A stretch of DNA of 32,413 bases from Chitinophaga pinensis (GTDB taxonomy: Bacteria > Bacteroidota > Bacteroidia > Bacteroidales > Prolixibacteraceae). Numbering within the stretch: position 1 is the stretch's first letter; every line of letters begins with the position of its first letter. Below the pieces are notes generated by a model. It was not told where the DNA came from and did no database searches. It worked only from the letters and a program-made list of their open reading frames with translations. The DNA is taken from positions 1-32,413 of the forward strand of contig CAMDGL010000004.1 in the NCBI GenBank assembly GCA_945897845.1. The letters are read 5' to 3'. Shown in pieces: positions 1,946 to 12,188 of the stretch. The position numbers were made by a program, and so were the translations under genes.

Positions 1946-4582
1946 ATGGAGTTAGAAGATACGGACAGGAATTACATTGAAAGTTTATTCTCCAGTAAAA
2001 AACTTTATCAAATTTTCGTAGAAAACGCTGATGTTGCGATATTCTTTGCGGAAGAATCGAAGATTATCGACTGCAATAAAGCGGCGGTTAAAATATTTGG
2101 TTATCATTCAAAAGATGAACTTCTGGGGAAGTTTCCTTTTGATTTTAGCCCAAAAATGCAAGCCGATCAAATCCTGTCAAACGAAAAGGCTATCCAATTA
2201 ATTACCGAAGCATACAGCAAATCATCAATTGATTTTTTCTGGAAATTTATAAAATCCGACGGAAAATCTTTTGATGCTGAAGTTATCCTGAATTCATTTA
2301 ATCATGAAAATCGCGCTATTCTGCAATTTTCAATCTGCGACATTTCCTTCAAGAGCAATAGAGAAAAAGAACTTTTAAAAACCGAAAACAAATACAAAAA
2401 AATATTCGAAAATGTTCAGGATGTGTTCTACCAGACCGATTTAAATGGAATAATAACTGAAATCAGTCCATCGATAGAAAAATATTCCAAGTATTTATAC
2501 AAAGATGTTGTGGGGCAACCGATTGAAAAATTTTACTACCACCCTGACGACCGGATTAAATTGATCAACAAAATTAAGGAGACTGGCGAGGTTCACGATT
2601 TTGAAGTACTCTTGAAAGGAAAAGAAAATCAGCCAATCTGGGGATCGGTAAATGCACATTTTTTTTTCGACGAAGCAGGTCAAATGGCCGGAATCGAAGG
2701 CACAATAAGGGATTTATCGGACCGGAAACAAGCCGAAGAAAAATTAGAACTTTCGCTTTCACTTTTACAAGCCACACTGGATTCAACAACCGATGCGATA
2801 TTGGTTGTAAACCGGTCGGGAAAAATTACCAGTTTCAACAAACAATTCCGGCTGATATTTAACCATTCTGAAAAAATTCTTGAATCAGGCGAAGATACAG
2901 CTGCCATTGAATCTGTACTTAGTCAGCTAAAATATCCTGAACAATTTGTCTCCAAAATACAATATCTGTACGGTCATCCTGAATCAGTAAGTCATGATAC
3001 CATTGATTTAAAAGATGGACGGATTCTGGAGCGGTATTCATGTCCTCAGTATTTGGATGGTGAACCCATTGGGCGGGTGTGGAACTTCAGGGATGTTACT
3101 GTTCGGAAAAGAGATGAAAAGCAATTGCACCTGATGTCTCACACCCTGAAAAGTATCAACGAATCGATCAGTATAACCGACATCAGCAACAGGATCTTAT
3201 TTGTGAATGCCGCATTTCTGAAAACCTATGGATATGACAATGAAAATGAACTGATTGGGCAGGACATTTCAACTGTAAGACCATCAGAAAATGATCCTGA
3301 GATTACAAATGAAATTCTGACAATTACTGCTGATTCAGGTTGGCAAGGTGAAATATGGAACAAAAAGAAAGATGGCACCAAATTCCCGATCTCGCTTTCT
3401 ACTTCCCTTGTTCAGAATGAGGATGGTGAAACAATCGGAATGGTGGGAGTTGCCGTTGACATTTCGGAACGAAGACAAGCTAAAAAAGCCCTTCAGGAGA
3501 GCGAATCAAAACACAGAAACTTGATAGAAACCATGCCGGATGCTGTTTACAGAAGTACTCCTGAAGGAAAATTTGTGGAAGTAAATCCGGCAATGGTCAA
3601 AATGCTCGGATACGAGAGTAAGGAAGAATTAATTGCAATCGATATCAAAACACAGCTCTATTTTAAGCCTGAAGACAGGGAAAGTCTCGTGTTGCAAAAC
3701 AACCCTGATGACCTTGATGTATTCCCCATAAAAAAGAAAGACGGATCGGCTATCTGGTTGGAAGATCATGGTTGGTATGTCAAAGATGAAACCGGACAAA
3801 TTATTTTTCATGAAGGTGTCATGCGGGATGTTACTGAGCGGAAATTTTCGGAAATACAACTTCAAAAATATTCCGAAGAATTGCAGGAACTGAATGCAAC
3901 CAAAGACAAGTTTTTCTCCATCATTGCGCACGACCTTAAAACCCCGTTCAACAGTATTCTCGGATTAAGTGAAATCATGAAAGACGAGGCCAAACATCTT
4001 GATATTGCAACTATTGAGGAATATGCAGGCATGATTTATTCAACGTCAAAAAATACCTTCAGGCTGCTCGAAAATCTGCTCGACTGGGCACGTATCCAGC
4101 AATCGCGAATGACATTCAATCCAGGACCAATTCTGTTAAAAAAACTGGTGGGCGAAGCTGTTGAACTGATGATTGAAAAAGCAAACAGCAAACAGATTGC
4201 CATTATCAATTTTATTCCTGAAAACCTGATTGTTGTGGCCGATGAAGACATGCTTAAAACTATTTTCAGAAACCTGGTTTCCAACGCGTTGAAATTCACA
4301 TCAGCCAACGGGAAAGTTGAAATAAAAGCAGTTTCAACAGCCCATTCCATCGAAATTTCGGTAAAAGATACCGGTACTGGAATAAAGCAGGAAGACATCG
4401 GTAAACTATTCAAAATTGACTCGAATTTTTCGAAACGCGGAACTGAAAACGAAAAAGGAACAGGACTTGGATTGATGCTGTGCAAAGAGTTTGTTGAAAA
4501 ACATGGAGGTAAAATTTGGGTTGAAAGCGAAGAAGGAAAAGGAAGTAAATTTTGTTTTTCATTGATGCTTCCTGATCATTAA
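1946..4582 (+). CDS. Multi-PAS sensor histidine kinase (about five PAS domains + HisKA + HATPase_c)
   Basis: Repeated PAS/PAC signatures (e.g. IRDLSDRKQAEEKL, VDISERRQAKKAL, MRDVTERKFSEIQL). H-box FFSIIAHDLKTPFNSILG and C-terminal ATPase motifs KDTGTGIKQEDIGKLF...GTGLGLMLCKEFVEKHGGKIWVES. Confidence 0.93.
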   Translation: MELEDTDRNYIESLFSSKKLYQIFVENADVAIFFAEESKIIDCNKAAVKIFGYHSKDELLGKFPFDFSPKMQADQILSNEKAIQLITEAYSKSSIDFFWKFIKSDGKSFDAEVILNSFNHENRAILQFSICDISFKSNREKELLKTENKYKKIFENVQDVFYQTDLNGIITEISPSIEKYSKYLYKDVVGQPIEKFYYHPDDRIKLINKIKETGEVHDFEVLLKGKENQPIWGSVNAHFFFDEAGQMAGIEGTIRDLSDRKQAEEKLELSLSLLQATLDSTTDAILVVNRSGKITSFNKQFRLIFNHSEKILESGEDTAAIESVLSQLKYPEQFVSKIQYLYGHPESVSHDTIDLKDGRILERYSCPQYLDGEPIGRVWNFRDVTVRKRDEKQLHLMSHTLKSINESISITDISNRILFVNAAFLKTYGYDNENELIGQDISTVRPSENDPEITNEILTITADSGWQGEIWNKKKDGTKFPISLSTSLVQNEDGETIGMVGVAVDISERRQAKKALQESESKHRNLIETMPDAVYRSTPEGKFVEVNPAMVKMLGYESKEELIAIDIKTQLYFKPEDRESLVLQNNPDDLDVFPIKKKDGSAIWLEDHGWYVKDETGQIIFHEGVMRDVTERKFSEIQLQKYSEELQELNATKDKFFSIIAHDLKTPFNSILGLSEIMKDEAKHLDIATIEEYAGMIYSTSKNTFRLLENLLDWARIQQSRMTFNPGPILLKKLVGEAVELMIEKANSKQIAIINFIPENLIVVADEDMLKTIFRNLVSNALKFTSANGKVEIKAVSTAHSIEISVKDTGTGIKQEDIGKLFKIDSNFSKRGTENEKGTGLGLMLCKEFVEKHGGKIWVESEEGKGSKFCFSLMLPDH

Positions 4583-4636: not shown

Positions 4637-5797
4637 ATGGATGAATCAATTATTATCGGATTAGTCAGAAATATTGCCATATTGCTAACATTTAGCATGT
4701 TGTATGATTATTTCTGGTCCAGAAATGAAAATAAAAACATACTTTATTCGAAGTTGATATCTGGTGTCGTTTTGGGTGGAATTGGAATTGTTTTGATTTT
4801 AACACCCTGGCATTTTGTTCAGGGTGTATTTTTCGATACGCGTTCGGTAATGCTTTCGATCGCAGGACTTTTTTTTGGACCTGTTCCGACCATTACTGCC
4901 ATGTTGATTTCAGGTATCTACCGGTTTTACATTGGTGGCGCAGGTGCAATGATGGGCATCGCCGTTGTTCTTACTTCCGGATCAGCAGGCCTTTTATGGA
5001 GACACTTCCGACCCGGTTGGCGAAAAACCAATCCCGGAATCGAATTGGCCGCGATGGGTTTCCTTGTTCACATGGTCATGCTTGGCTGTACTATATTTCT
5101 ACCCGACGAAGTCAGATGGCAAACATTTGAAAACATTGCCTTGCCTGCTATTATCATTTATCCGGTTGCAACTGTTTTGCTTGGCAAACTAATGCTCAAC
5201 CAGGCAGAAAACTGGGAGAACCGGAAAGCTTTAAATATTAGCGAAGAACGCTGGCATTTTGCGCTGGAAGGTGCAGGTGACGGTGTCTGGGACTGGAATC
5301 CCAAAACAAACGAGGTGTTCTTTTCGAAACAGTGGAAACGAATGTTGGGATACGAGGATCATGAAATTGAAAATAAACTCGAAGAATGGGAAAAACGTGT
5401 GTTTCCCGAAGATAAGGAAATGACCTACGAAATTTTAAATCGTCACATCCGGGGCGAAACTCCAGTTTACATCTCAGAACACCGCATGTTGTGCAAAGAC
5501 GGAACATACAAATGGATTCTTGACCGGGGGAAAATAATGTCATTTGATTACGATGGAAAACCACTCAGGTTTATCGGAACCCACACTGATATTTCGGAAC
5601 GTAAGGAAACTCAGGAAAATATCAGTAAAATGAATGAAGAGCTGGAACAAAAAGTTTTTGAACGGACAAATGAATTGTCAACAAAAAATAATGATCTCGA
5701 GAGAATTAACCGACTTTTTGTCGGACGCGAGCTTCGCATGGTAGAACTAAAAAAACAGATTAAAACACTGGAAGAAAAACTTGAAAAGTTGATGTAG
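4637..5797 (+). CDS. LytS/YhcK-type 5TM receptor domain + PAS domain + C-terminal coiled coil; no histidine kinase domain
   Basis: N-terminal TM region with SIAGLFFGPVPTITAMLISGIYRFYIGGAGAMMGIA (5TMR-LYT-like), then PAS/PAC (EGAGDGVWDWNPKTNEVFFSKQWKRMLGYEDHEI...GTHTDISERKE). Ends in coiled coil ELRMVELKKQIKTLEEKLEKLM and stop. Confidence 0.85.
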   Translation: MDESIIIGLVRNIAILLTFSMLYDYFWSRNENKNILYSKLISGVVLGGIGIVLILTPWHFVQGVFFDTRSVMLSIAGLFFGPVPTITAMLISGIYRFYIGGAGAMMGIAVVLTSGSAGLLWRHFRPGWRKTNPGIELAAMGFLVHMVMLGCTIFLPDEVRWQTFENIALPAIIIYPVATVLLGKLMLNQAENWENRKALNISEERWHFALEGAGDGVWDWNPKTNEVFFSKQWKRMLGYEDHEIENKLEEWEKRVFPEDKEMTYEILNRHIRGETPVYISEHRMLCKDGTYKWILDRGKIMSFDYDGKPLRFIGTHTDISERKETQENISKMNEELEQKVFERTNELSTKNNDLERINRLFVGRELRMVELKKQIKTLEEKLEKLM

Positions 5798-5860: not shown

Positions 5861-6532
5861 ATGACAACGATCGAAATCAACGAATTCAGAACAAGCCTCA
5901 CTAATCTGATTATTGAAGCACATCGGACTGAAGCAGTGAGCCTAATTGATGAAATTTCGAAGGAAACCGGTTATTTCATGGCAATCAACCAGATTCTCGA
6001 GCCTGTTCTGATCAGAATTGGAGAAATGTGGTCAAAAGAAGAATTATCGCTGGCACAAGGTTATGTTGCAGCAAAAATTACGGAGGATGTATTGTTAAAA
6101 GCCCTTCAAACCTCTGAATGGCAGTCAAAAATCACAAATAAACAAGTACCTGTTGTTCTGGCGAACATCGAAGATGATTTTCATGCATTGGGCCGGAAAA
6201 TGGTTGGAACCTTTCTTCAGGCTTCCGGCTGGCAGGTGCACGATTTGGGAAACGATGTTACTGCAATTGATATTGTTGATGCCGCGGTCAGGCTAAATGC
6301 ACCCATCATAGGAGTTTCTGCAATGATGTATTCCACTGCTCTAAACATCCGGAAAGTGCGCGAAGAAATTGACAGCCGTAATCTTCAGGATAAAATAAAG
6401 CTGGCTGTTGGTGGAGCCATTTTTAAAGTTCGGCCCGAATTAACCGCCGAAGTTGGAGGCGATGGCACTACTGCCAGCGCCACAAATGCTTCGGAATTAT
6501 TTTCCGAATTATTAAAAACAATTAAAAACTGA
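5861..6532 (+). CDS. Cobalamin (B12)-binding domain protein, methyltransferase corrinoid-protein type
   Basis: Helical cap-like N-terminus, then DFHALG (DxHxxG at 6176-6193), IGVSAMMYS and KLAVGGAIF, the canonical base-off/His-on corrinoid-binding motifs. Confidence 0.88.
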   Translation: MTTIEINEFRTSLTNLIIEAHRTEAVSLIDEISKETGYFMAINQILEPVLIRIGEMWSKEELSLAQGYVAAKITEDVLLKALQTSEWQSKITNKQVPVVLANIEDDFHALGRKMVGTFLQASGWQVHDLGNDVTAIDIVDAAVRLNAPIIGVSAMMYSTALNIRKVREEIDSRNLQDKIKLAVGGAIFKVRPELTAEVGGDGTTASATNASELFSELLKTIKN

Positions 6533-6536
6533 GGCC

Positions 6537-7550
6537 ATGTTACCTATCGAACGCGTATTTGGAACCATACTTGGTAAGCCAGTCGATCGGGTTCCTTTCA
6601 CACTCACCACATCGCTTTACGGGGCAAAACTAACCAATTGCGAGATTGCTGAATACTACTGCAATCCGGACAAATATTTCAGAGGTCAAATGGCAGTTGT
6701 CAGCGAATTTGAACCCGACATTATTTTTTCTCCTTTCGCCCTTGCAAAGGAAGCCGAAGCCTTTGGTTCAATATCAACTTATTCCGGTAATAATCCGCCA
6801 AACATTAAAAAACCGGTAATATCCGACTTTTCAGAAATTTCATCACTTAAATTACCTGATATAGAGAACCATCCAGGTCTGATTTATCTGAGTGAAAGTA
6901 CACGTTTACTTTCCGGACAATACAAAGATCAAATACCGGTGGCTGCCATCTGTACTTCACCTACCGAACTTCCGGCACTGATTATGGGTATTGAAGGTTG
7001 GCTGGACACCCTGCTTTTTCATCCGGAAGAGGCAAAGCAATTGATGGAACTAACTTCCGGCTTTTTTGTCAGCTTTGCCAACTCACTGCTTGCAGCAGGG
7101 GCTTCGTGCATCGTTACTTTAGCTAATTTTTCAAATCCTACCATCATTACCAGGAAAATTGCGGAAGAAACAATGATTCCGGTACTTGAACAGAACTATG
7201 CGCAAATTAACGGACCAATTATTTTTCATCACGGAGGTCCCCGGCTAATTCCTTTTCTTGATTTATTTCCCAGGCTTCCTAATCTGGCCGGACTGGTGAT
7301 TTCACCAAAAGACAGTTTTGAGGAAACAAGACAGATTGTCGGAAAAGAGATTACCATCTTCGGAAACCTTAATGGCCAAATGCTATTGAAAGCAAATCCT
7401 GAAACAATTAAAAAATGGACCTGTGCTATTCTGGAAAACCGAAAGGATGACCAGCATTTCATTTTTGCTTCATCAAATGCCGATATCCCGTATGATACTC
7501 CGCTTGAAAACCTGAAAGTCATAACCCGTATTTTAAAAAATTCAGCCTGA
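6537..7550 (+). CDS. Uroporphyrinogen decarboxylase-fold (MtaA/CmuA-like) protein with apparently degenerate zinc site
   Basis: Overall URO-D/MtaA-like pattern: MLPIERVFGTILGKPVDRVPF, ITIFGNLNGQMLL, DIPYDTPLENLKVI. Expected HxC and later Cys positions read HHG and NAD. Confidence 0.82.
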   Translation: MLPIERVFGTILGKPVDRVPFTLTTSLYGAKLTNCEIAEYYCNPDKYFRGQMAVVSEFEPDIIFSPFALAKEAEAFGSISTYSGNNPPNIKKPVISDFSEISSLKLPDIENHPGLIYLSESTRLLSGQYKDQIPVAAICTSPTELPALIMGIEGWLDTLLFHPEEAKQLMELTSGFFVSFANSLLAAGASCIVTLANFSNPTIITRKIAEETMIPVLEQNYAQINGPIIFHHGGPRLIPFLDLFPRLPNLAGLVISPKDSFEETRQIVGKEITIFGNLNGQMLLKANPETIKKWTCAILENRKDDQHFIFASSNADIPYDTPLENLKVITRILKNSA

Positions 7551-7551
7551 A

Positions 7552-8133
7552 ATGAATAGTGAAAACTCAGTAACAGGTATCGCATGTAGCATTTTCAGAA
7601 ATGAAATTGACTTCCTGATTGAAAAAGGAAAACTGTCCGGAACATTCACTTATGTTGATTCTGAATTACACATGAATCCTCAGAAATTGAATCAGGTACT
7701 TGAAGAATTGATCAGACCTGATTGTTTGTTGTGTTATGGCGACTGCCATTCGCGAATAATGCAACAGCAAAACGAAGGATTAATACAGCGGATCAACGGA
7801 TTAAATTGTGTTGAAATATTTCTGGGACCGGAAACATACCGGAAACTCAGAAAAGAAGGTGCATTTTTTCTGCTTCCCGAGTGGACGATAAAATGGGAAC
7901 GGATATTTAAAGAATTACTGGGTTTTAAGGACCAGGCAATCGCCATACAGTTCATGAATGAAATGCACACAAAACTCATCTTTTTAAACACCGGTGTTCA
8001 TGAAATTCCTCTCATTACACTTGATGCCATATCGGAGTATTTTTCGCTACCGGTTGAAGTTATTGACATTGATTTGATACATTTGGAAAACGCCATAAAA
8101 AATGGTATAAAACAATTTCAGAATGAAAGTTGA
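7552..8133 (+). CDS. DUF1638 domain-containing protein
   Basis: YVDSELHMNPQKL, CLLCYGDCHSRI, LNCVEIFLGPETYRKLRKEGAFFLLPEWTIKWERIF, LIFLNTGVHEIPLITL. These match the DUF1638 pattern as I recall it. Confidence 0.82.
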   Translation: MNSENSVTGIACSIFRNEIDFLIEKGKLSGTFTYVDSELHMNPQKLNQVLEELIRPDCLLCYGDCHSRIMQQQNEGLIQRINGLNCVEIFLGPETYRKLRKEGAFFLLPEWTIKWERIFKELLGFKDQAIAIQFMNEMHTKLIFLNTGVHEIPLITLDAISEYFSLPVEVIDIDLIHLENAIKNGIKQFQNES

Positions 8134-10261
8134 CAATGCAATTAACTACCTGGTACTCGATCTGCTGAAGAACGTCCTCAGCATGGCCGATAAACCTGAA
8201 GAATTAGGAAAATATATCACCAAACAGATAAGAGAATTAATTGGCTGCAAAATGGTTGCATTGTTTTTCCATAATGAAGTTAAACCGAAAATACACCACG
8301 AACTCATCGGTATTTGTCCTGAACGAAATAAAATTGACATTGATTTGAATTTATGGGATGAAATTGCAGAAGCCAGTCACGAATTTCATACTTCAATCCT
8401 TTTTCAGCATAAAAAAGAAGGTAATAAAGTTGAGCAAATCCTTTCACGGCTTGGTGGTAATTATTCAATTATCATTCCTTTGGAAAGCAGTAATCAACGG
8501 GTTGGAGTACTTGCCATTATTGATATTTTAGATATAAAAAACCTGCAGTCAATCATCGATTCGCTGGATGCACTTTCCGGAGTTTTGGCCATTGAACTGC
8601 GAAATGCAAATGTATTGCAAAACATGGAAACCTTGGTTGCCATGCGAACAAAAGAGCTTTCTGTGAGCGAAAAACGGTTTCGGACCATTATTGAACAAGC
8701 TACCGATGCGATGTTTCTGTCTGATATGAATGGAAATATCGTAGATACCAATCAGCAGGCATGTAAAAGCCTTGGCTACACCCGCGACGAACTGTTAAAA
8801 TTAAAAATCATAGATCTGGATGCTATTTTTGACAGGAATGAAAAAGTAAAAGTTACAATGGACAAGATGGTTCCGAAGGAGAACTCTATTTTCGAATCGG
8901 TTCACCGCAGGAAAAACGGGAATACATTTCCGGTAGAAATCAGCACAAGCATCATTGATCTGGATGGTGTGAATATGGTAATTGGTTTTGTGCGCGATAT
9001 TTCGGAACGCAAGGAAAACGAGCAGAAAATTATGCGGGTGGCACAACATTACCAGGCCCTAATAGAAAAAGCGCCCGATGGGATTGTTCTCATTAACGCT
9101 GAAGGAAACTTCAAATTCATAAGCCCATCAGCCCGAAAAATGTTTGGATATTCAAATACTGATGAAATTACAGGGAATCCTTCAGAGTTCACTCATCCGG
9201 ATGATTTACCCATGGTTTATTCTGTTTTGCAGAACCTCATTCAGAATCCGTCGCTTGTTACGACGGTTCAATACAGGTTTATTAACAAAGACAGACAGTG
9301 GAAATGGGTTGAAAGTACATTCAGTAATTTACTGACCGACCCAAGCGTTGAAGCCATCGTAATCAATTTTCGTGACATCACCGAGCGCAAACTTGCAGTG
9401 GAAGAAATCAACAAGCTCAACGAGCAACTTGAACAAAAAGTACTGGAACGAACCAATGAATTGGAAAGACGCAGTAGTGAATTACTCGATAACGAAGCTG
9501 CATTATTAAACCTGGTGGAAGACCTGAACCTTAAATCAGATGAACTTCAGCGCAGTGCCAAACAACTTGAAGGCGCCAACAAGGAACTCGAAGCTTTCAG
9601 CTATTCGGTTTCGCATGATTTGAGGGCGCCATTGCGCGCTATAAGCGGTTTTGTGAGCATTCTGATGGAAGATTATGAAAACATTCTCGATGATGAAGGC
9701 AGGCGAATTTGCAGTATTATCCAATCAAATGCAGCCAAGATGGGGCAGTTAATTGATGATCTTCTTTCATTTTCGCGGCTAATCAGAAGCGAACTGCACC
9801 ATTCGAAAATTGACATGGGCAGTATGGTGAAAAATGCAATCGCCGAATTCGGAACAGCTCAGGATTTGTCGCCTAAAACAATTACGGTTCAAAACCTGCC
9901 TGAAGCTTTTGGCGATGCAAACCTGCTCAAACAAGTCTGGATAAACCTGATATCAAACGCATTAAAATATTCATCCAAAGAAGACAATGTTCAAATTAAT
10001 ATCGGGGCTTTCCAAAAAGAAAGTGAAACATCCTATTTCATCAAAGACAATGGTGTAGGATTTAACATGACATACAGCAACAAGCTTTTTGGCGTTTTTC
10101 AACGCTTGCACGGACTAAACGAATTTGAAGGAACGGGTGTCGGACTGGCCATTGTTCAGCGAATAATTAACCGGCACGGAGGGCGTGTTTGGGCTGAAGG
10201 TGAAGTCGGAAACGGGGCAACATTCTATTTTTCTTTACCAACAAATAAATTACAGATATAG
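8123..10261 (+). CDS. Sensor histidine kinase (N-terminal GAF-like + 2 PAS + HisKA + HATPase_c)
   Basis: PAS/PAC (VRDISERKENEQKI; FRDITERKLAVEEI), H-box EAFSYSVSHDLRAPLRAISGF, ATPase motifs KDNGVGFNMTYSNKLFGVFQRLHG...GTGVGLAIVQRIINRHGGRVWAEG. The start overlaps the end of the DUF1638 gene by 11 nt. Confidence 0.92.
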   Translation: MKVDNAINYLVLDLLKNVLSMADKPEELGKYITKQIRELIGCKMVALFFHNEVKPKIHHELIGICPERNKIDIDLNLWDEIAEASHEFHTSILFQHKKEGNKVEQILSRLGGNYSIIIPLESSNQRVGVLAIIDILDIKNLQSIIDSLDALSGVLAIELRNANVLQNMETLVAMRTKELSVSEKRFRTIIEQATDAMFLSDMNGNIVDTNQQACKSLGYTRDELLKLKIIDLDAIFDRNEKVKVTMDKMVPKENSIFESVHRRKNGNTFPVEISTSIIDLDGVNMVIGFVRDISERKENEQKIMRVAQHYQALIEKAPDGIVLINAEGNFKFISPSARKMFGYSNTDEITGNPSEFTHPDDLPMVYSVLQNLIQNPSLVTTVQYRFINKDRQWKWVESTFSNLLTDPSVEAIVINFRDITERKLAVEEINKLNEQLEQKVLERTNELERRSSELLDNEAALLNLVEDLNLKSDELQRSAKQLEGANKELEAFSYSVSHDLRAPLRAISGFVSILMEDYENILDDEGRRICSIIQSNAAKMGQLIDDLLSFSRLIRSELHHSKIDMGSMVKNAIAEFGTAQDLSPKTITVQNLPEAFGDANLLKQVWINLISNALKYSSKEDNVQINIGAFQKESETSYFIKDNGVGFNMTYSNKLFGVFQRLHGLNEFEGTGVGLAIVQRIINRHGGRVWAEGEVGNGATFYFSLPTNKLQI

Positions 10262-10301: not shown

Positions 10302-12188
10302 ATGGATAAGTTGATTCGCGTACTGCTTGCTGAAGATGAGCTCTATGATGCGGAACTCAATATCAGGGAAATAAAAAAAATGCTTTCAAACGTAGTGTTT
10401 GAAAGAGTTGACAACAAGATCGCATTCATCAAAATGCTTGAAACTTATTTTCCTGACATCATCATTTCCGACTACAATATGCCATCATTCGATGGACTTA
10501 CAGCACTTAAAATTGCCAGTGACCTTTGTCCGGAAATTCCGTTTATCATTGTTACCGGTTCGATAAACGAAGATACGGCAGTAGAATGCATGAAAGCAGG
10601 TGCAACCGATTATGTCCTGAAAGATTCATTAAAAAGGCTTGGATCTTCCGTTCAGAATGCATTGGAGCAAAGCAAAATCCGTAAGGAACGAATCGATGCA
10701 TTTGAAACGATTAAATTAAATGAAGCCAAGTACCGGTATATGTTTCATAATAATCCGCAGCCAATGTGGATATACGATCTGGAAACCTATAAATTTCTCG
10801 AAGTAAATAATGCAGCAGCAAAACATTACGGATTTTCAAAGGAAGAATTTCTTACAATGAACTTAAAAGATGTCCTTCCATCATTCGAGATTGAAAAACT
10901 GGTAAAAAATAGTGAAACTTTTGATTCTCATCTCAATCTGGCTGATACATGGATCCATAAAAAAAAGAACGGCGAATTAATATCCGTTGAAATAGTGTCA
11001 TATTTTATCATTTTCAATAAACGAAATGCCAGGCATGTTTTAATCAACGATGTTACCGAAAGAAAAAAAACAGAAGAAAAGCTGATACATGAGCGCAAAC
11101 TATTGCGAACCCTCATTGACAATTTACCCGTTACAATCTATGTAAAAGATGCTGAAGGCCGGAAAATCATAGCCAACCGCGCTGATCTGGAAGTTATTGG
11201 AGCTAAAACGGAAGTAGAAGTGCTGGGTAAAACAGATTTGGAATTATTCAGAAATGATATAGGTGTGAGAGGATATGCCGATGACAAAAAGCTTATCGAA
11301 ACAGGAATCCCGGTGCTAAACCAGGAAGAATATTTTTTTGACATTAACGGAGTACAGCATTGGCTAATGACATCAAAAATTCCTTTGACCGAAGAAAACG
11401 GGAAAATTACCGGATTGGTTGGCATCGGTCACAATATCACCGAACAAAAGAAAATGCAGGCAGAACTTATAGAAGCAAAAGAAAAAGCCGAAGAAAGCGA
11501 CCGTCTGAAATCAGCCTTTCTGGCAAATATGTCGCACGAAATACGCACTCCGCTGAATAGTATCATTGGTTTTTCAGAACTTTTAGGAGACCCTGATTTT
11601 GATCCTGACCAAAAAACAGATTTTATTACGCACATTGTTGACAATGGCAATAGTTTGCTGATGATTATCAGCGACATCATGGACTTTTCGATGCTTGAAG
11701 CTGGTCAACTTAAACTTCGGCCGGAACAAATTTCAGCAAAAAAAATAATGAATGAGCTTTTGAATGAATTTGAGCACAAAGCCGAATTAAGAGGGATTCA
11801 ACTTCGGATAGACGATTCGGCCAATGCGCCCGATATCCTTTTCACAAGTGACATTTACCGTATAAAACAGATTTTCAACAATTTAATCGGAAACGCAATT
11901 AAATTTACCAGTGAAGGATTTGTTGAAATCGGATATAAAACAGCTGGTGAAATGGTTGAATTTCATATCAAAGATTCAGGAATCGGAATTGATCCAAAAT
12001 ATCATCAGGCTATTTTTGAACGGTTCAGGCAAGTTGACAACACCAAAACACGCAAATACGGAGGCAATGGTTTGGGATTGGCTATTTCAAAAAATCTGAT
12101 ACAACTGTTGGGTGGAAACATCTGGTTAAAATCAGAATTAGGCAAGTATTCCGATTTCCTTTTCACAATTCCCATTAACAAGATTTGA
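10302..12188 (+). CDS. Hybrid: N-terminal response-regulator receiver + 2 PAS + HisKA + HATPase_c
   Basis: REC with acidic pocket LLAEDE, phospho-Asp in IISDYNMPSFDG, VTGS and VLKDS. H-box FLANMSHEIRTPLNSIIGFSELL and GNGLGLAISKNLIQLLGGNIWLKSE. Confidence 0.93.
   Translation: MDKLIRVLLAEDELYDAELNIREIKKMLSNVVFERVDNKIAFIKMLETYFPDIIISDYNMPSFDGLTALKIASDLCPEIPFIIVTGSINEDTAVECMKAGATDYVLKDSLKRLGSSVQNALEQSKIRKERIDAFETIKLNEAKYRYMFHNNPQPMWIYDLETYKFLEVNNAAAKHYGFSKEEFLTMNLKDVLPSFEIEKLVKNSETFDSHLNLADTWIHKKKNGELISVEIVSYFIIFNKRNARHVLINDVTERKKTEEKLIHERKLLRTLIDNLPVTIYVKDAEGRKIIANRADLEVIGAKTEVEVLGKTDLELFRNDIGVRGYADDKKLIETGIPVLNQEEYFFDINGVQHWLMTSKIPLTEENGKITGLVGIGHNITEQKKMQAELIEAKEKAEESDRLKSAFLANMSHEIRTPLNSIIGFSELLGDPDFDPDQKTDFITHIVDNGNSLLMIISDIMDFSMLEAGQLKLRPEQISAKKIMNELLNEFEHKAELRGIQLRIDDSANAPDILFTSDIYRIKQIFNNLIGNAIKFTSEGFVEIGYKTAGEMVEFHIKDSGIGIDPKYHQAIFERFRQVDNTKTRKYGGNGLGLAISKNLIQLLGGNIWLKSELGKYSDFLFTIPINKI

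Follow-up and report, generated by a model that had tools for sequence, protein, structure and literature searches.

The question raised by this locus is what a UroD/MtaA-like protein is doing in a run of signalling genes when it has lost the cysteines of its zinc site. In the window, by which we mean the whole 32,413-nucleotide stretch of DNA analysed, the gene of this protein (6537..7550, forward strand, like all genes of the run) is the third of a tight run. It is preceded by genes for a 5TM-PAS membrane protein without a kinase domain (4637..5797; PF07694, PF08447) and a B12-binding protein (5861..6532), and is followed by genes for a DUF1638 protein (7552..8133) and a histidine kinase with PAS domains (8123..10261; PF00512, PF02518), the last two overlapping by 11 bases. 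HisKA (47.1 bits) and HATPase_c (82.0 bits) both score above cut-off in this kinase, which identifies it as a two-component histidine kinase. More kinases lie on both sides in the same direction: a PAS-rich histidine kinase upstream (1946..4582; PF00989, PF00512, PF02518) and a receiver-PAS-histidine kinase downstream (10302..12188; PF00072, PF00512, PF02518). A truncated-haemoglobin-like protein (1373-1864; PF01152) is encoded just upstream of the kinases.

Identity and zinc site of the window protein

The 337-residue protein matches Pfam family PF01208 over residues 4-334, its full length (E 1.2e-52; 179.6 bits against a gathering score of 23.9). Its best solved match, with an end-to-end alignment, is the corrinoid:coenzyme M methyltransferase structure 4AY7, which we take to be M. 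mazei MtaA. Its best NCBIfam matches are methylcobalamin:CoM methyltransferases, every one far under cut-off; for the MtaA/CmuA models these scores are 77.5 versus 235.4 bits (TIGR01463) and 100.7 versus 244 bits (NF004889). Identity as HemE was rejected on the basis of the TIGR01464 score (22.1 versus 303 bits) and a position outside the HemE group in the tree.

Alignment with 4AY7 and with M. extorquens CM4 CmuA, which both carry H, C and C at the ligand columns (HxC...C), confirmed the claim of the sequence-only reading that both zinc cysteines are missing. The zinc-site histidine is retained as H231 (codon 7227-7229), the first cysteine is replaced by G233 (7233-7235) and the second by A315 or the adjoining N314 (7476-7481), and the His-Cys-Cys triad is therefore absent. 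The first half of the former site had been placed correctly at 7227..7235, which covers H231, H232 and G233 and is followed by a one-residue insertion relative to MtaA. The second half had been put slightly off, at 7476-7490; it falls within ASSNADIPYDTPLEN (residues 311-325; 7467..7511).

An ortholog at locus L012, 77% identical and in the same core gene order, has FHHGGP and ASSNADIP motifs identical to those of the window. Chance and sequencing error are excluded because L012 shares these motifs and because 14 homologues of the same subclade (K1, below) share the pattern with small variations. A pseudogene was rejected in view of the intact reading frame, the shared motifs and a dN far below dS: comparison with L012 gave a dN of 0.14 and a dS of about 2, the latter near saturation, and this sequence comparison indicates that the UroD gene is under strong purifying selection. 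The neighbouring genes behave similarly, with dN of 0.13-0.16 and dS of 1.3-2.8 across the four module genes.

The gene for the corrinoid protein (223 residues; PF02310, E 1.6e-21; PF02607, E 1.3e-6) ends 4 bases 5' of the UroD start. A motif search located the DxHxxG cobalt lower-ligand motif as DFHALG (6176..6193), which makes this a cognate corrinoid protein of the kind that accompanies MtaA and CmuA. The best match is TIGR02370, at 84.5 bits and thus below the curated cut-off of 215.3; there is also a weak profile match to CarH, and the TIGR02370 corrinoid proteins are closer than CarH. AlphaFold models of the UroD and DUF1638 proteins, built from two-sequence alignments, had mean pLDDT values of 42 and 47 and were not used.

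A clade of altered UroD proteins and its gene neighbourhood

We surveyed about 1,150 genomes, mostly from the window's order and phylum, together with plasmid records, using as queries DUF1638, the window UroD protein and the MtaA-like family NF004889, the last of which is independent of DUF1638. Neighbouring genes were read with purpose-built profiles, zinc positions were tabulated in 78 UroD-family proteins, and all trees were quick trees with SH-aLRT support only. In a tree calculated without the zinc columns, the window protein belongs to a clade of 28 (SH-aLRT 99) that comprises three subclades, K1, K2 and K3 (support 100 each). The triad is absent from all 28 members, and the second cysteine is kept in none of them versus all 33 MtaA-like controls, which have both cysteines throughout (22 H-C-C and 11 F-C-C). 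The controls were sorted by their own zinc letters, with which tree groups and gene neighbourhoods are concordant. Fisher's test on the cysteine loss (p 5e-18) is an overstatement, as the clade has a single origin and the counts are not independent. At the sequence level, the original observation is thus correct and more general than a single protein, and the expectation that classical zinc-thiol methyl transfer is unlikely is supported.

Each subclade has lost the site in its own way. K1 (n=14), to which the window belongs, has H[HNS]GG and SNADIP with small variations, and K2 (n=9) has HxAS and DNHGEIP, with DNHGE in all but one member, which has ENHGE. K3 (n=5) has YYCG and no second cysteine, so that the histidine is lost and one cysteine is retained. 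Three K3 members (L125-L127) and two K2 members (L122, L124) were found through the MtaA-like search and not through DUF1638; the pattern is therefore not solely an effect of the route by which loci were found. Cysteines elsewhere in the protein, SCIV and WTCAIL among them, had been named as a possible alternative zinc site, and they are not conserved: C191 (SCIV) occurs in 4/14, C296 (WTCAIL) in 1/14, C139 in 3/14 and C35 in 7/14 K1 homologues, with no conservation of any of them in K2 or K3. The acidic residues E72, E74 and D61, common to many of the MtaA-like controls, are nearly invariant in the clade. A different variation, with Phe for the zinc His and both cysteines kept (FVCG...APGCDL), is seen in the MtaA-like protein of L015 (3626-5086) and in ten relatives; a B12 protein adjoins most of these Phe variants, and L015, the one that was scanned, has a C-terminal thioredoxin-like domain.

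The genes that recur in the surroundings of the modules are signalling genes. Of the 28 clade loci, 23 have an adjoining histidine kinase (22 by automatic scan and L045 by Pfam). At L039 and L089 the contig ends within the PAS proteins that follow the module, and L040 stops at a contig edge. A kinase is lacking near L091 and L124, and at L048 an NMT1-like protein separates DUF1638 from the kinase downstream of it. No kinase was seen near the 33 controls within the flanks examined, which were only 1.5 kb for many. DUF1638 is fused to a kinase at L014, L042, L043, L090, L092, L122 and L071 (with a sub-threshold Pfam score at L071), and at L087 UroD and DUF1638 form one protein that is followed by a kinase. 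The suggestion that cysteine loss might co-vary with a kinase neighbourhood was borne out, with the reservation that one origin underlies the non-independent counts.

The clade is co-inherited with its own corrinoid protein and, in most loci, with DUF1638, which was not detected in the K3 members L125-L127. The K1/K2/K3 split of the UroD tree is repeated in the B12 tree (where K1 has a support of only 80) and in the DUF1638 tree, which indicates that the genes descend together as one inherited unit. In the modules, the motif search also picked up DxHxxG in the B12 proteins encoded next to UroD; at L071 the pattern match fell elsewhere. Downstream in the K2 loci L014 (10489-11619), L042 and L043, there is a second B12 protein with E[KQ]HQVG for DxHxxG, followed by a protein of ~150 residues (no Pfam match in L014). 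At L042 of genome G014, most of the UroD gene is missing between the B12 and DUF1638-kinase genes (8776-9213), which could reflect a deletion or an assembly fault.

The DUF1638 protein of the window (193 residues; PF07796, E 7.2e-25; 88.2 bits against a gathering score of 27) has three invariant cysteines, C12 (7585-7587), C65 (7744-7746) and C86 (7807-7809). The sequence-only reading had suggested that DUF1638 might supply the lost zinc ligands in trans. This compensatory role was rejected: the same three cysteines are invariant in the 36-37 sequences compared, including 11 without a UroD protein of the clade, and at L044 DUF1638 and a RamA-like protein stand beside a UroD protein with an intact HNCG/C site. 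L044 likewise speaks against DUF1638 as such causing the cysteine loss. DUF1638 gave no significant match to solved structures, and tblastn found no DUF1638 in the plasmid records. In the same order, L073-L081 carry DUF1638 without a UroD or kinase module. A B12 protein is often encoded within some kilobases of it, and these loci are probably metabolic. In Phaeobacter inhibens, methionine synthesis requires a DUF1638 gene that stands beside a three-part B12 methionine synthase and for which no specific function was put forward (PMC5764234). We infer that a corrinoid protein is what DUF1638 handles or reads.

A putative corrinoid-based sensor and its rivals

The genome evidence gives good support to a signalling role of the module, and the UroD clade probably contributes to sensing a methylated or one-carbon compound and not to metabolism. 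The explanation that we favour, at about even chances, is that a repurposed corrinoid-methyltransferase pair provides the input to a two-component system that senses a methyl or C1 compound. The UroD barrel would bind this compound beside the corrinoid of the B12 protein and alter the state of the corrinoid; the three-Cys DUF1638, which several relatives have as a fusion with the kinase, would read that state and set kinase activity. In the acceptor half-reaction of MtaA-type enzymes, zinc is required to activate the thiol. Loss of the zinc-thiol site would remove this half-reaction, so that the signal would not be drained into metabolism. The ligand, the movement of the methyl group and the role of DUF1638 are what we infer in this scheme. 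Weighing against it are the clade loci that lack a neighbouring kinase or are cut off at a contig end, the NMT1-like protein interposed at L048 and the G014 locus with most of UroD missing.

How the corrinoid state would change can be considered in light of CdmB, a UroD-superfamily corrinoid methyltransferase that methylates its own corrinoid protein from chloromethane without zinc (PMC13222342). As this donor half-reaction is zinc-free, clade members could still methylate their corrinoid or merely bind the ligand, and the label of pseudo-enzyme offered by the sequence-only reading is not forced. The receptor role offered alongside it is supported in part by the tight operons and the DUF1638-kinase fusions. 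Repeated methyl transfer through Co(I) normally needs a RACo/RamA activator. None was detected in most module-bearing genomes, several of which are incomplete; G012, which is 99% complete and has two modules, is among those without one. This points to binding, or to an event of few turnovers, more than to catalysis.

A first candidate ligand comes from Azoarcus KH32C, where a K2 module (L154; NC_020548.1 246-293 kb) sits in the middle of a methylotrophy island with fae, fhc, PQQ dehydrogenase, RuBisCO and H4MPT genes. The module has fae/fhcABCD, which are H4MPT formaldehyde genes, on one side and a PQQ methanol/ethanol dehydrogenase on the other; Calvin-cycle genes are close by, and this position suggests methanol or another C1 compound. 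The link of the module to C1 compounds comes from this one locus. Outside the clade, a Thiodictyon plasmid (L072; NZ_CP020371.1 38703-43694) encodes in a row a B12 protein, a UroD protein with HTAG and the second cysteine kept, a RamA-like ASKHA protein and a GAF-diguanylate cyclase; here a corrinoid methyltransferase was perhaps recruited to signalling a second time, separately.

The same module could also work with no methyl group moving at all, if a UroD barrel devoid of catalysis did no more than bind a ligand or the corrinoid protein, and the B12 protein were a structural or redox partner. This is possible though unlikely. It would suit the loss of both cysteines in K1 and K2 and of the histidine and one cysteine in K3, the missing activator (G012 included) and the lack of a recurrent methyl acceptor protein in the operons, whereas the near-invariance of E72, E74 and D61 and the retained DxHxxG are more than a dead scaffold needs.

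If the UroD protein were instead a metabolic, zinc-independent methyltransferase acting on the donor side like CdmB, in an operon that merely carries its own regulators, the purifying selection would fit, as would the zinc-free donor-side catalysis that CdmB shows in the family (PMC13222342). What recurs in the operons, however, is kinases, DUF1638-kinase fusions among them, whereas neither a second methyltransferase nor a pathway gene was seen repeatedly and an activator gene is usually undetected; we regard a metabolic role as quite unlikely. Very unlikely, in our judgement, is that the corrinoid itself, like that of CarH/AerR, is the sensor of redox state, oxygen or light, with UroD as a docking piece that holds it by DUF1638 and the kinase. 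The B12 motif that outlasts the zinc site, the PAS/GAF-rich kinases and the weak CarH match are consistent with such a sensor, but conserved residues and clade-specific motifs persist in a UroD barrel that is retained at full length, and the B12 protein resembles CarH less than it does the methyltransferase-cognate corrinoid proteins (TIGR02370). Finally, we find it hardly credible that the proteins still hold zinc or some other metal, with H231 and N314/D316 as ligands in K1 or the His of DNHGEIP as a ligand in K2: H231 is invariant in K1 and K2, D316 is invariant in K1, DNHGE is kept in K2 bar the one ENHGE, and other UroD proteins in the same genome include H-C-H variants with His third, but K3, with no His and one Cys left, leaves no ligand set common to the three subclades.

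Returning to the sensing corrinoid-methyltransferase pair, no corrinoid/UroD/kinase sensor was found in the literature searched. More tentatively, at somewhat below even chances, we suggest an undescribed class of signal input in Bacteroidota and the Azoarcus methylotrophy island, in which a zinc-less corrinoid methyltransferase pair would register a methyl or C1 compound as corrinoid methylation or redox state, and three-Cys DUF1638 would read this state and pass it to histidine kinases. If so, DUF1638 would gain a role, its part in B12-dependent methyl transfer having been left open (PMC5764234). It would also mean that a corrinoid methyltransferase pair had been converted into a sensor in bacteria, with methyl compounds detected chemically and not by simple binding. 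The fusion proteins and the Azoarcus locus make this idea directly testable, and a 'uroporphyrinogen decarboxylase family protein' beside a B12 protein need not signify metabolism.

Comparison with known systems

CarH/AerR, a B12-dependent light-sensing repressor/antirepressor with neither UroD nor kinase, resembles the module in employing a B12 protein for signalling; the B12 protein of the window matches CarH only weakly. CdmB of Acetobacterium dehalogenans, which acts on chloromethane, shares the UroD superfamily, a corrinoid-protein partner and the absence of zinc, and its structure (9rui) is a profile match of the clade (E 3.2e-10). The traits that mark its type are an aromatic substrate cavity and an activity that EDTA leaves unchanged. 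Unlike the clade, to which it has only distant sequence similarity, CdmB is metabolic and works with an activator and a second methyltransferase, and the part of the report consulted describes no kinase module for it (PMC13222342). The DUF1638/RamA-like system of P. inhibens likewise places DUF1638, of the same Pfam family as that of the window, beside a B12 protein, but it is a metabolic methionine synthase with a RamA-like protein, for which no UroD or kinase is described (PMC5764234). MtaA, MtbA and CmuA (TIGR01463; 4AY7) share with the window protein the UroD superfamily by full-length alignment, an adjoining cognate corrinoid gene and the E72/E74 region; in contrast to them, the window protein is without both zinc cysteines, scores well under the family cut-offs and is linked to a histidine kinase and DUF1638.
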